From Vicinamibacterales bacterium (GTDB lineage Bacteria > Acidobacteriota > Vicinamibacteria > Vicinamibacterales > 2-12-FULL-66-21): a stretch of DNA of 64,000 nt. Positions 33,456 through 62,488 of the stretch are shown in pieces (the stretch's first letter is position 1; each line of letters begins with the position of its first letter). The stretch is from positions 62,001 to 126,000 of the forward strand of contig DASSPH010000047.1 in the NCBI GenBank assembly GCA_035699745.1. The letters run 5' to 3'. The position numbers and the translations under genes are program-made. The notes below the pieces were generated by a model. The model saw only the letters and a list, made by a program, of their open reading frames with translations. It did no database searches and was not told the DNA's origin.

Positions 33456-35258
33456 TCACGGCCGTTCGAGGCGCGCCGCCACCGCGGCGTGCCCCTTCCG
33501 CTGCGCCCAGGCGAGCGGCGTCGCCCACGGCATGCCGGCGCGGGCGGCATCCGCGCCACGGCTGAGGAGCAGATCCACCATCGCCAGCTGCCCGCGGCGG
33601 GCGGCCACGCCGAGCGGCGTCGAGCGGTATTCCTCGTCCACCGCGTCGATCGCGGCGCCGTGGTCGAGCAGCAGACGCGCCTTGCCCATCTCTCCCTCCG
33701 CTGCCATGTGATGCAGCAGCGTCAGGCGATGCCAGTTCATGTGGTTCGGGTCCATGCCGCGCTCGAGCAGGAACGCCGCGGTCGCTTCGTGCTTGAAGTA
33801 GTAGTACGGCGCCCACTTCGAGACCGGCGGCACGCGGGCGCCGAGGCGGATCAGGAACGCCAGCACATCGTGCGCGCCGGCGTTGGCGGGCCCGGCAAGG
33901 ATGCCGTCCCCCCATTCCTCGTCGTTCAGGATCGCCGGATCCGCCGCAATCAACCGCTCCGCGACGTCGAAGCGGCGCTCGATCACGGCGCGGCCGATGT
34001 CGTCGTGCCTGCCTCGCGATTCAATGCCGCCGTGCGCGCGGAGCAGCGCCAGCAGCGCCGGCTTGCCGCGCGCGATCATCATCGGCGTTCCGCTCGATTC
34101 GACCATGCCGTTCGGGTCGGCGCCGTGCCGCAGGAGCAGTTCCGCGAGATCGGCGCGATCCGCGTATGCCGCGGCCCACAGCGCGTGGCCGCGCGGCGCC
34201 CCTTCCTCCGGCAGCGCCGGATCCGCGCCGTGCTCGAGCAGCAGCCGCGCCAGCTCGAGGTCGCCGCGCCGCACCGCGCCCGAGATCGGGCGATGATGAT
34301 TCGTGTCTTCGTCGTTGGCCATGGCGCGGTCGCGCGCGAGCGAGCGGCGGACGAACGCGGCGTCGCCGAGCAGCGCGGCAAGGAACATCGTGTAGCGTGC
34401 GCCCCGCGCCAGCAGGAGATCGGCGATGGCGCGCCCTTCGGGGGACGGAGCCCCGGCGGCGGAGCCGGTCATCAGCGCGAGGTGGATGGGGCGATAGCCG
34501 TCGCCGCGGATCGCGTCGGCGTCGGCGCCGGCATCGAGCAGCATCCGCACCATCTCCATGCTGCGGCGGCGCGCCGCGTGGTGCAGCGCGGTGTCGCCGG
34601 TCTCGTTCGCCGCGGCCGCGAGGGCGGCATCTCTGGCGATCTCCGCCTGCACGCCGCTCAGATCCCCGTCCCTGGCCGCGTCGATGATGACGCGGGTTCC
34701 GTCGGCGACCCGAAATCGTGTCGCCAGGTGCCGCCGCACCAGATCGGCCACCTCCGCATGCTGGTGATCCTCCGCGATGGTGAGCAGCGAGTCGGCGAAC
34801 GGATAGCTGCGATACGCGAGGTCGGCGCCCCGCGCGATCAGCAGCTCCACGATTCGCCGGTGGCCTTCGCGCGCGGCGAAATGGATCGGCGGCGTGTAGT
34901 TGTACTCGACGATCGCCAGCCCGGGGGCGCGCGCGATCAAACGCTTCATGCCGGCCAGGTCGCCCGCGCGCGCCGCGACGAACGTCGCATACACGTCGTC
35001 GGTCGTCACCGTCGTGCCGTCCGGCAGGGCGTAGGGACGGCCGGGCCGCAGTTCCACCGGCCGGATCAGCGCGGCGGTGAGCGCCGCCCCGGTCCTGGCG
35101 CCGCGAACGTGTGCGAGGAGCCGATCCCATCGGGTGAAGCCGTACTCACGCGCGAGCAGCCGCTGCGCGTCCGACAGCCGGATGCCCTTGTCGCGCGCGA
35201 GGTCCTTGGCCTGTTTGCGGAGCTGTTCGATCGACGGACGGGATGGGAGGGAACGCAT
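33456..35258 (-). CDS. Ankyrin-repeat protein with 'QAKDL' N-terminal module
   Basis: 600 residues. An N-terminal helical module (IEQLRKQAKDLARDKGIRL; SDAQRLLAREYGFTRWDRLL) is followed by about 12 ankyrin repeats (for example TPPIHFAAREGHRRIVELLI, DTALHHAARRRSMEMVRMLL, RYTMFLAALLG). No signal peptide. Ankyrin repeats mediate protein binding; the partner is unknown. The start at 35258 follows AAAGGAGAT. The gene shares its N-terminal module and its RNA leader with the ankyrin gene at 53226-54500, so the two are likely paralogues under the same control. Confidence 0.92.
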   Translation of the reverse strand: MRSLPSRPSIEQLRKQAKDLARDKGIRLSDAQRLLAREYGFTRWDRLLAHVRGARTGAALTAALIRPVELRPGRPYALPDGTTVTTDDVYATFVAARAGDLAGMKRLIARAPGLAIVEYNYTPPIHFAAREGHRRIVELLIARGADLAYRSYPFADSLLTIAEDHQHAEVADLVRRHLATRFRVADGTRVIIDAARDGDLSGVQAEIARDAALAAAANETGDTALHHAARRRSMEMVRMLLDAGADADAIRGDGYRPIHLALMTGSAAGAPSPEGRAIADLLLARGARYTMFLAALLGDAAFVRRSLARDRAMANDEDTNHHRPISGAVRRGDLELARLLLEHGADPALPEEGAPRGHALWAAAYADRADLAELLLRHGADPNGMVESSGTPMMIARGKPALLALLRAHGGIESRGRHDDIGRAVIERRFDVAERLIAADPAILNDEEWGDGILAGPANAGAHDVLAFLIRLGARVPPVSKWAPYYYFKHEATAAFLLERGMDPNHMNWHRLTLLHHMAAEGEMGKARLLLDHGAAIDAVDEEYRSTPLGVAARRGQLAMVDLLLSRGADAARAGMPWATPLAWAQRKGHAAVAARLERP

Positions 35259-35379
35259 GGGATCTCCTTTCACAGCGCCCGTGTCCGCCAGCCGGGCTGA
35301 AAGAAGATCGAGAGACGGTCGATATTGCGCGCACAGGTGGGCTCGGCCCTTTCCGCGGACGGGATGCGCCCTGCGACGC
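35259..35379 (-). ncRNA. Candidate structured RNA leader of the ankyrin gene, copy A
   Basis: About 121 nt from a predicted start at 35379 to the ATG. In RNA order: hairpin GCGU-CGCAGG-GCGC (35379-35366); CCCGUCCGC (35363-35355); hairpin GGGC-CGA-GCCC (35349-35339); ACCUG (35338-35334); hairpin AUCGA-N7-UCGAU (35323-35307); GCGGAC plus GGG (35288-35278), pairing with CCCGUCCGC; then AAAGGAG and ATG. CCUG can also pair with CAGG of the first loop, making a pseudoknot. Every element recurs in copy B with base-pair changes that preserve pairing. It may be a riboswitch or a protein-binding leader; the ligand is unknown. Confidence 0.6.
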
Positions 35380-35385
35380 GTCCTC

Positions 35386-35414
35386 AGGCTACGGGGTCTC
35401 TGCCTCCGCGTCAA
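35386..35414 (-). promoter_or_regulatory. Sigma-70-type promoter of leader A (TTGACG-N17-TAGCCT)
   Basis: On the minus strand TTGACG (35414-35409) and TAGCCT (35391-35386) are separated by 17 nt, the best housekeeping promoter in the window. Transcription would start about 7 nt downstream, at the first base of the 5' hairpin (35379). Confidence 0.6.
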
Positions 35415-53225: not shown

Positions 53226-54500
53226 TCACGCCGTTCCCCCGCGCTCCGCGATCAGCCGCAGCGACTCCCGGCTGACGAAGATCTTCGCGTGGTACCGCTC
53301 TCCCCAGCTGAGCGGCGTCACGCCGCGGTACTCGCGGATCGGCCCGCCGCCATGTCCGTGCTCGAGGCCGGCGCGAATCGAGGCCCGCACGCTGGGATCC
53401 GCGCCGCGCGCCAGCAGGAGCCGCGTGAACTGCGCCTCGTCCGGCTGCCCCTTGCCGTAGTTCACCCAGAAGTTCCGCTGCGACACGACGGTCGAGAACA
53501 GCGCCGTGTAGCCGCCGAAGCCGTCGCCGTCGATCGCCGCGCGTGCGTCCGGATCCATGCCGCGATCGAGCAGCCACCCGGCGACCTCGACCTCGTCGAA
53601 GTACGCCGCGACGTGCAGGAGCGTCACGCCCTGCAGCGGCGTCCCCTGCGCCACGTGCGGCTTGCCGGCGCACGCAGGCGCCAGCGGATAGACGTCGGCC
53701 TTGTCGAACGTACGCGTGAGGAGATCCGGATCGCGGGCGAGATGCGCGGCGAGCAGGTCGATCCGGCCGCGATGGAGCGCCATGATCGGCGTATCCGGCA
53801 GCTCGAAGCCGTGCTCCACGTACATCTCCAGGATGCGATGCTTCGCGGGCGGATTGCGGCTGTCGGTGCCGAGGAGGTGCTCCATCGTGTTGTAGTCGAC
53901 GCGGCCGTCCGGCTTCACTACCCGCGCGCCGAGCATGAGCAGCGCGGCGGTGCCTTCCACACTCAACGTATACGCCGGCCCCGCCAGCGTCCACCGGTCG
54001 AGCGACGGCCTCCCCGCCAGCTCGTAGATCATGCGCACGGTGTCGGCCTTGCCGGCAAGCGCCGCGCGTCCCGCCGCGTGCTCGAGATCCCGGGCGCCAA
54101 GGCGGTGAAGCAGGCGGACGATCCGATCGCGCCCGAGATTCGCGGCGTAGCTCATGGGAGGGCCCCAGTTGGTGTCCTTCCCGATCAGCACGTCTTCATG
54201 GATCAACGACGCGTCCCGTTCGAGGAGCGCACGGACCGCGTCCACGTCGTCGCGCCAGATGGCATCGGCGAGCTGCACGGCATGAACGAGCCTCGTCCAG
54301 CTCGACGCCTGATACGCGCGCGCCAGCACCAGCTGCGCGTCGGCCAGCCTGGCGGACGCGGGATCGACGCCGGAGGGATGGTGCTCGCGGAATTCCGCGA
54401 TCGCCGCCGGATCGCCGGCGTGCGCGGCTTTCAGGAGATCCTTGGCCTGATGATGGAGCTGATCGGAATCCGGGCGGATCGGCAGGCGGCGGGCGGGCAT
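53226..54500 (-). CDS. Ankyrin-repeat protein, paralogue of the one at 33456
   Basis: 424 residues. The N-terminus has the same module as the other ankyrin gene (DQLHHQAKDLLKAAHAG; SARLADAQLVLARAYQASSW), followed by about eight ankyrin repeats (DAVRALLERDASLIHEDVLI; VTLLHVAAYFDEVEVAGWLL). No signal peptide. ATG 54500 follows AAGGAGGC at 5-6 nt. A structured leader homologous to that at 35259-35379 precedes it. Function unknown. Confidence 0.9.
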   Translation of the reverse strand: MPARRLPIRPDSDQLHHQAKDLLKAAHAGDPAAIAEFREHHPSGVDPASARLADAQLVLARAYQASSWTRLVHAVQLADAIWRDDVDAVRALLERDASLIHEDVLIGKDTNWGPPMSYAANLGRDRIVRLLHRLGARDLEHAAGRAALAGKADTVRMIYELAGRPSLDRWTLAGPAYTLSVEGTAALLMLGARVVKPDGRVDYNTMEHLLGTDSRNPPAKHRILEMYVEHGFELPDTPIMALHRGRIDLLAAHLARDPDLLTRTFDKADVYPLAPACAGKPHVAQGTPLQGVTLLHVAAYFDEVEVAGWLLDRGMDPDARAAIDGDGFGGYTALFSTVVSQRNFWVNYGKGQPDEAQFTRLLLARGADPSVRASIRAGLEHGHGGGPIREYRGVTPLSWGERYHAKIFVSRESLRLIAERGGTA

Positions 54501-54628
54501 ACGAGCCTCCTTCAACAGCCCGGGGTCCGCTGGCGTCGGGCAAGGAGGTTCGGCGATCGTGTCCGAACGTCGTTCACTGACTCAGGTGGACTCGGTCCTG
54601 CCCGCGGACGGGGGGCGCCCTGGAACGC
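54501..54628 (-). ncRNA. Candidate structured RNA leader of the ankyrin gene, copy B
   Basis: In RNA order: hairpin GCGU-UCCAGG-GCGC (54628-54615); CCCGUCCGC (54612-54604); hairpin GGAC-CGA-GUCC (54598-54588); ACCUG (54587-54583); hairpin GUUCGG-N9-CCGAAC (54568-54548); GCGGAC plus GGG (54530-54519), pairing with CCCGUCCGC; then AAGGAGG and ATG. Compared with copy A, the second hairpin changes G-C to A-U on both sides, the third hairpin changes sequence but keeps position, and CAGG/CCUG is conserved. This is evidence for structure and not merely sequence. Confidence 0.6.
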
Positions 54629-54635
54629 CTACGGG

Positions 54636-54641
54636 AAGGTA
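54636..54641 (-). promoter_or_regulatory. -10 box TACCTT of leader B
   Basis: TACCTT (54641-54636 on the minus strand) lies 7 nt before the first base of the 5' hairpin (54628), matching the arrangement in copy A. The expected -35 site (about 54659-54664) falls in the heptamer array and has no TTGACA-like sequence. Confidence 0.5.
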
Positions 54642-54650
54642 GCACAGAAC

Positions 54651-54710
54651 GGTGCGCGGTGCGCGGTGCGCAGTGCGTCAGTGCGTCAGTGCGCAGTGCG
54701 TCAGTGCGGC
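54651..54710 (+). repeat. Short heptamer/octamer array (GGTGCGC, AGTGCGTC)
   Basis: About eight units: three GGTGCGC, then AGTGCGTC and AGTGCGC alternating, with the last unit degenerate. The unit matches the large array at 30422-30664. It occupies the place where the -35 of the ankyrin leader promoter should be. Confidence 0.85.
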
Positions 54711-61309: not shown

Positions 61310-62488
61310 CTATACCCTGACGGGCGGCACGTCAGCCGCCGCAGCACGGCGCAACGGCGCGACACGCGCGTAGGTGATGGTGCGCCATAACCATTCGAGC
61401 GGGCCGAGACGGAAGCGGGCGAGCCACGCGCGGCTCGCGAGCGCCTCCACGCCGAACAGCAATGCAGTGGCGGCGACGTACAAGTAGGGACGCACCGTGA
61501 GCGCCGCGCCGTAGCCGGACGCGAGCGCGTCGAGCACGATTGCCTGCAGCAGGTAATTGGTGAGCGCCAGCCGCCCGGCGTCGCGGAACCATGCGAGGCG
61601 CGCCGTCCAGGCCGGACGTGCGTGCACCAGCAGGATCACGCCGCCGATGTAGGTGAAACAGAGCCACTGATCCTGGATGAGACCGAATCCGTAGGCGATC
61701 GGCCAGTCCGCGCCGGGAATACCCGTCGACGGCAGACGGCGCAGTACCAGCCACGATACCGCCCACGATCCCGCGCCGAAGATCATCCAGCCGGCTATCA
61801 GCCGGACGTGACGACCTGGTTCATCGAGGACGCGGTGCCGGACCGCGAGCAGTCCCAGCGTGAACAGGGCCAGGTTGACCGTCGGCAGCAGATCCCGCCA
61901 GCCGAGGGCGAATCCGTTCACGAACAACGCCCATCGCGCGGCGAGCAGCGTCAGGTAGCGATCCTGCGCCGCCGCCGCGGCGGCTGCCTGCATGAGCGCG
62001 GCGGTGTGCGCCGGCGCGGCCGCCAATCCGAAAGCGTGCAGCGCCGTCAGTTCGGCGGCCAGCGGTCGGGCGCAGGCGAAGATCGCCGCCGCGACGAGCA
62101 GCGCCGGCGTCGGCCACCGGCGGAGGACCAGCAGCGCGACACCCCAGCAGGCGTACTCGAGGAGGATGCCGAATCCGAACCCCACCTCGGCAATCACGCC
62201 GAAGAGGGCCAGCGCCGCCATCCGGCGCAGGAAGATCGGCCACACCCGCCGGCCCCGCGCGTCCAGGCGCCGCAGCAGAATCCCGAACCCGGCGCCGAAC
62301 AGAAACGCGAACGTGCCCCAGGCCTTCTGTTCCAGCAGCACCCAGACGCCCCACGCGATCAGGTCTTCGACGCCGCCGGCGTCCTGCCGCATCCGCTGGT
62401 GGAAGTGCACCAGGATCATCGCGCAGAGCGCCAGGCCCCGCAGACAGTCGAGCGAGTGCAGCCGATCGTCCTCCGGCAGGTGCGTCAT
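61310..62488 (-). CDS. DUF418-type membrane protein
   Basis: 392 residues, about ten membrane segments. It starts with RLHSLDCLRGLALCAMILVH, typical of the DUF418/acyltransferase-3-like group, and has WGTFAFLFGAGFGILLRR and ALTNYLLQAIVLDALASGYG. Role unknown; related proteins may modify the cell envelope. ATG 62488. A TAACAT box lies about 21 nt upstream. Confidence 0.85.
   Translation of the reverse strand: MTHLPEDDRLHSLDCLRGLALCAMILVHFHQRMRQDAGGVEDLIAWGVWVLLEQKAWGTFAFLFGAGFGILLRRLDARGRRVWPIFLRRMAALALFGVIAEVGFGFGILLEYACWGVALLVLRRWPTPALLVAAAIFACARPLAAELTALHAFGLAAAPAHTAALMQAAAAAAAQDRYLTLLAARWALFVNGFALGWRDLLPTVNLALFTLGLLAVRHRVLDEPGRHVRLIAGWMIFGAGSWAVSWLVLRRLPSTGIPGADWPIAYGFGLIQDQWLCFTYIGGVILLVHARPAWTARLAWFRDAGRLALTNYLLQAIVLDALASGYGAALTVRPYLYVAATALLFGVEALASRAWLARFRLGPLEWLWRTITYARVAPLRRAAAADVPPVRV

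Follow-up and report, generated by a model that had tools for sequence, protein, structure and literature searches.

The two ankyrin-repeat genes in the 64,000-nucleotide stretch of the Vicinamibacterales bacterium contig DASSPH010000047.1 analysed here (positions 62,001 to 126,000; hereafter the window) are each preceded on the minus strand by a leader that can be aligned end to end with the other (copy A, 35259-35379; copy B, about 54501-54628), as described in the original prediction from the sequence. This raises the question of whether the leader acts as an RNA, and on what. Comparison among homologues establishes, at the level of sequence, the folds, the pairing of the Shine-Dalgarno sequence (SD), the position of the 5' end relative to the promoter and a strict linkage to one N-terminal protein module. 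The reading that we favour, and hold with about even confidence, is that the leader is a translational operator RNA in the 5' untranslated region (UTR), probably bound by the module itself.

Conserved structure of the leader

Copies A and B folded singly gave no signal (z -1.07 and +1.01), and cmscan at gathering scores found no Rfam 15 match in the window or in eight homologous loci, so the case for the RNA rests on comparison. At a cut-off of E <= 1, a covariance model built from the two window copies (R1) matched 26 of 162 genomes from the order, and 49 of the 55 distinct matches are homologues with a common order of elements. This order runs from hairpin P1 at the 5' end through GUCCGC, GGRAA, hairpin P3, an A, CCUG and a variable stretch to the strand that pairs with the SD (anti-SD), followed by GCCYG, 3-6 nt, GCGGAC, 1-3 nt, CRGGC, the SD and the start codon. 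The window's own genome holds a third copy (G000:C18:3225-3344, L060).

Standard pairs make up 97.8% of the pair cells in 22 sequences, against 32-47% when the partners are slid by 1-3 columns. In 101 sequences from many phyla, aligned to a second covariance model (R2), 98.0% of the cells pair and two-sided changes occur at 12 of the 23 pairs. Slid or shuffled controls score far below the true structure; the shuffle tests are inflated by relatedness, and more weight can be placed on the slid controls and on how many pair types occur. R2 is limited to P1, P3 and the upper part of the SD hairpin P4, so the counts for the pseudoknot PK1 and for P2, which lie outside the model, are unbiased by the alignment fit.

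Within the 101 sequences, P1 is paired in 97.3% of cells, with GC, AU, CG and UA at one pair. PK1, formed by CAGG of the P1 loop and the downstream CCUG, is paired in 92.7%, with CG, UA, AU and GC at one pair and AU, GC and CG at another, and its own partners outperform swapped ones in energy (z -6.7). P2, which joins GUCCGC to GCGGAC, is paired in 100% and nearly invariant, and its support is weaker for that reason; a GUUCGC:GCGAAC variant occurs in L017 and L018. The bases CC, GGRAA and A of the 5' domain are conserved and unpaired. P1, P3 (GGGC/GCCC changing to GGAC/GUCC), GUCCGC:GCGGAC and CAGG:CCUG are found in both window copies. P1, the compensatory change in P3 and the pseudoknot had all been predicted, and these elements covary among the homologues. 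The predicted long-range stem survives as GUCCGC:GCGGAC, without its bulged-GGG extension: the CCC:GGG pairing was rejected because own partners (-3.09 kcal) did no better than swapped ones (-3.12 kcal, z +0.2). Homologues exist, their stems are kept, neither a riboswitch class nor an Rfam family of other meaning matches, and the original proposal of a cis-acting structured RNA leader is upheld by compensatory changes in P1, P3, PK1 and P4.

The TTGACG-N17-TAGCCT promoter proposed for copy A is exact, and P1 begins 7 nt past TAGCCT. TANNNT stands at -15 to -12 relative to P1 in 155 of 207 homologues, and TTGNN at -40 to -35 in many. Because a -10-like element stands at this distance upstream in most of the homologues, P1 would be the 5' end of the transcript and the start of transcription, where it had been placed before.

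Pairing of the Shine-Dalgarno sequence

The structure first proposed lacked the hairpin that hides the SD, P4, which covaries strongly. A conserved strand located 5' of GCCYG is the partner of the SD, the helix being 11 bp long in copy A (GAUCUUCUUUC:GAAAGGAGAUC), while a CGGG/CAGG strand pairs with GCCYG just 5' of GCGGAC in a short helix that runs on into the anti-SD:SD helix. The upper pair of P4 occurs as CG43, UA42 and GC9. In an alignment-free test, each anti-SD was duplexed with its own SD and with the SDs of other sequences; the energies were -16.8 for own vs -11.6 kcal/mol for swapped SDs in 40 sequences (z -11.6) and -17.1 vs -13.2 in 77 sequences from many phyla (z -12.5). Swap controls had |z| < 1 in the larger set; in the smaller, three were near 0 and a fourth, the variable region against the anti-SD, reached z -2.2. 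A Burkholderia cenocepacia copy differs in its letters and keeps AUCCUU:AAGGAU and GUGC:GCAC.

With its SD paired in P4, the folded leader would block ribosome binding, and it very probably regulates translation by hiding the SD. Since GCGGAC lies in the loop of P4, P2 would join the 5' domain to the SD hairpin by a kissing or pseudoknot interaction, and the linker lengths suggest that P2 and P4 can coexist. The idea that the SD-like GGRAAGG acts as an anti-anti-SD by pairing with the anti-SD was rejected (own versus swapped, z +0.6 and z -0.9).

The linked N-terminal module

The leader had been tied to ankyrin genes, and this link did not hold. Among the matches listed, 109 of the 111 readable open reading frames (ORFs) downstream of leaders encode an N-terminal module with the consensus LExLRKQAKxLL...LxDAQxxxAREYGFxSWPxLK. 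The leaders had been picked by DNA alone; the hidden Markov model of the module was built from 93 of these ORFs, and the motif is visible in the translations. Ankyrin as the linked feature is ruled out by the other C-termini behind the module, which include LRR, Clp_N, LON substrate-binding, methyltransferase and other parts, some of them unassigned, with DUF1835 in plasmid records. The fusions to LON substrate-binding (L223:4092-4907) and Clp_N (L034, L055) are to parts of proteolysis systems. By a hand tally in 22 leader-bearing genomes, the leader stands in front of 51 of the 55 canonical module ORFs. Of the four exceptions, one lies at a contig edge, one is a fragment and two (L305, L306) have apparently lost it.

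AlphaFold models the module as a four-helix domain (79 aa, mean predicted local distance difference test score, pLDDT, of 83). Its net charge per 100 aa is +5.2 vs -3.2 for the rest of the protein, being higher in 87 of 88 proteins, and lysine or arginine occupies two helix-1 columns in 99%. RNA distance is correlated with module distance, with a modest effect (rho 0.197, reached in 0 of 500 permutations), and its correlation with C-terminal distance (0.073) falls within the permutations. Three divergent leader-free modules (L298-L300) have lost the basic residues, and the module of a Vibrio campbellii gene without a recognisable leader (L313) has kept them, so we do not claim such loss as a rule.

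The same module forms the N-terminal part, about 54 residues, of PF20066 Glyoxalase_8 (E 1.3e-5). Against the curated 23.7 bits, one isolated module scores 25.7 and others 14.7-16.9 or nothing, all over the first ~55 profile positions only. Pfam counts as part of a glyoxalase family a module that stands here on many unrelated C-termini.

Distribution of the leader

A model made from the two copies, as had been suggested, did recover homologues within the order, and R2 matches 31 of 347 genomes of the phylum Acidobacteriota; the family is not confined to it. A DNA-only pattern scan of named genomes gave at least 118 stretches, nearly all matched by R2. By record title they belong to at least ten phyla, namely Acidobacteriota, Actinomycetota, Pseudomonadota, Gemmatimonadota, Verrucomicrobiota and Planctomycetota, together with Armatimonadota, Chloroflexota, Bdellovibrionota, Latescibacterota and Myxococcota; many carriers are metagenome-assembled genomes and may be misbinned. 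Isolates among the carriers include Nonomuraea, Amycolatopsis, Kribbella, Paraburkholderia, Rudaea and Bosea, and further carriers in the records of a plasmid collection are Burkholderia, Methylosinus, Variovorax, Azospirillum, Gemmatirosa, Nonomuraea and, weakly, Pseudomonas. One genome (G160) has 10 RNA matches, which are paralogues. Matches without a module gene and with a broken core were judged to be chance (L045-L048, L068 with a plus-strand match, L069, L143 and L144).

Leaders also stand before frameshifted or early-stopped module genes in L062, L051 and L116 (the same place as L145), apparently decayed copies or assembly errors. On one contig of a viral collection, IMGVR_UViG_3300036904_000151, a leader with a module gene lies at the end (L263:9050-9154). 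A shorter leader lies upstream of the module in L302 and in the glyoxalase-type module genes L267 (L267:1430-1503) and L303; P1, the loop pseudoknot (GUAGG:CCUAC, CGGG:CCCG) and P3 are seemingly kept and P2 and P4 are not recognisable, and it is possibly a second type of the same RNA.

Features in the window

The features of both copies are given in the table. Directly upstream of copy B, positions 54640-54710 of the minus strand contain short repeats (GCACTGACGCACTG, GCGCACC), and no clear -35 box was seen there.

Table. Positions of the two leaders, their structural elements and the adjoining genes.
Feature	Position	Strand	Description
Copy A promoter, sigma70-type	35386-35414	-	TTGACG 35409-35414, 17 nt, TAGCCT 35386-35391
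Copy A P1 hairpin	35366-35379	-	GCGU-CGCAGG-GCGC; at the putative transcript 5' end; pairs covary
Copy A PK1	35332-35373	-	P1-loop CAGG (35370-35373) with CCUG 3' of P3 (within 35332-35338)
Copy A P2	35278-35360	-	GUCCGC 35355-35360 with GCGGAC 35283-35288 in P4 loop
Copy A GGRAA	35350-35354	-	conserved, single-stranded
Copy A P3 hairpin	35339-35349	-	GGGC-CGA-GCCC; compensatory GC/AU and CG/AU/UA changes
Copy A P4	35261-35309	-	anti-SD GAUCUUCUUUC 35299-35309 with SD GAAAGGAGAUC 35261-35271; GCCCG:CGGGC above
Gene after copy A	33456-35258	-	600 aa; N-terminal module (~residues 1-54), then ankyrin repeats
Copy B leader	54503-54628	-	R2 score 72 bits
Copy B P1	54615-54628	-	
Copy B P2a and GGGCA	54599-54609	-	
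Copy B P3	54588-54598	-	
Copy B PK1 strand	54581-54587	-	
Copy B anti-SD	54542-54551	-	
Copy B P2b	54518-54530	-	
Copy B SD	54503-54513	-	
Gene after copy B	53226-54500	-	ATG 54498-54500; N-terminal module (match 1.7e-27), then ankyrin repeats

Possible modes of action

As a translational operator, the leader would be transcribed from P1, and P1, P3 and the P1-loop pseudoknot would form a compact 5' domain with the unpaired CC, GGRAA and A. From this domain, GUCCGC would kiss GCGGAC in the loop of P4, the stem of which would sequester the SD by means of the anti-SD. Binding of the basic four-helix module to the 5' domain would hold the leader in its closed state, and each module protein, perhaps together with paralogues in the same genome, would in this way limit its own translation. 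This reading is favoured because P1, P3, PK1 and P4 covary and each anti-SD is matched specifically to its own SD; in structure and in position, a folded leader adjoins the SD of the linked gene. The strict tie to one module suggests that the leader is bound by it, in the manner of autogenous leaders like that of rpsO/S15, and the same is suggested by the tracking of module distance by RNA distance and by the basic character of the module. That the module is the ligand seems to us an evenly balanced proposition, and its binding would presumably repress. Several points weigh against the operator. The modelled module has no recognisable RNA-binding fold, a search of the PDB with the model having given 10 weak matches, none at E 0.001 (best Z 2.1), and the leader-free Vibrio campbellii gene indicates that the module has a role without this RNA. 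The conserved unpaired junction bases fit a small-molecule aptamer equally well, and joint descent of leader and module as a cassette would produce both the linkage and the correlation of distances.

The main rival, a small-molecule or ion riboswitch in which the P1-PK1-P3 junction would bind a metabolite, stabilise P2 and P4 and hide the SD, is possible though rather unlikely; the module proteins would then respond to the same compound or stress. The leader does combine a conserved fold, a conserved unpaired core at P1/PK1/P3 and an expression platform (P4), its compact pseudoknotted junction being 5'-terminal, with CC, GGRAA and A kept in many phyla and a SD-hiding output helix. However, the genes under a known riboswitch class usually belong to one pathway and have unrelated domains, and here the C-termini are unrelated, one N-terminal module is common to all and RNA divergence follows the module. 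Alternatively, leader and module may be an inherited cassette with constitutively low or ribosome-dependent translation and no specific ligand, acting through slow unfolding, ribosomal protein S1 or standby binding, and linked by descent and domain shuffling. The paralogues within one genome (10 in G160) and the shuffled domains fit movement as a unit, and P4 alone is strong enough to limit translation, but P4 would suffice for a constitutive blocker, and the conservation of the unpaired bases and the pseudoknot across phyla would then go unexplained, which makes this improbable. The SD lies in a melting-prone helix in all copies, as it would in an RNA thermosensor or another ligand-free physical switch; with the 11-bp helix of copy A and the pairs above it, and a 5' domain and pseudoknot conserved beyond the needs of a thermometer, we consider melting very improbable. 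Least credible, to the point of being hardly worth entertaining, is a feature of the DNA or of chance, such as inverted repeats for a transcription factor or the mere alignment of related upstream DNA. The two copies alone, with the folding scores given above, proved little in this respect, but compensatory changes affect several helices including the pseudoknot, the leader has one orientation relative to gene and promoter, and the pairing counts in 101 sequences and the own-versus-swapped energies already contradict such an origin.

Relation to known RNAs

A permissive Rfam 15 search with copy A returned weak unrelated matches only. No description of the leader was found in the openly readable literature searched; the main text of PMC11109978 and of PMC8632094 has no ankyrin or acidobacterial motif. 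Solibacter-1, from a Weinberg-type survey, is a candidate structured RNA of Acidobacteria, listed without an Rfam number as not cis-regulatory and as limited to Solibacter usitatus (PMC2864571). By that listing it would differ from our leader.

Ribosomal protein S15 has been reported to repress its own mRNA via a pseudoknot operator in the rpsO leader and to use diverse RNA structures (PMC8470358, PMC4684408); in mycobacteria, the repression requires the leader pseudoknot (PMC8470358). Like that system, the present leader is a pseudoknotted 5' UTR near the SD and tied to one protein domain. Unlike it, the linked unit is an N-terminal module on otherwise unrelated proteins, and one RNA architecture is kept across phyla. 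Nor is it a ribosomal-protein leader, as what follows it is a gene for the module joined to ankyrin, LRR, Clp_N, LON or other parts. The preQ1-II and SAM-II riboswitches are compact pseudoknots in which the last helix hides the SD for translational control. The leader resembles them in its compact pseudoknot, its SD-hiding last helix and its probable translational control, but has no sequence or Rfam match to them and no biosynthesis or transport genes downstream.

Implications

Judged by its strong covariation in sequence comparisons, the leader represents a family of structured regulatory RNAs that Rfam 15 does not contain and that occurs in at least ten phyla; cultured members of the Actinomycetota and Pseudomonadota are among the carriers. 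That it is tied to one N-terminal module instead of a pathway is unusual, and a SD-hiding leader before genes with a common module may point to an undescribed self-control of the production of a protein family. It is conceivable, if somewhat short of an even chance, that a small N-terminal module which binds RNA, and the pseudoknotted leader that it recognises, have moved through these phyla as a unit for self-control; any effector fused behind the module would then come under the same feedback, and paralogues may form a cross-regulated set. If the module does not bind, the leader would count as an orphan riboswitch class whose gene context is clear. If it binds its own leader, a function would be assigned to a common, uncharacterised domain that Pfam now places among the glyoxalases, and the pair would constitute a portable protein-operated translation switch.
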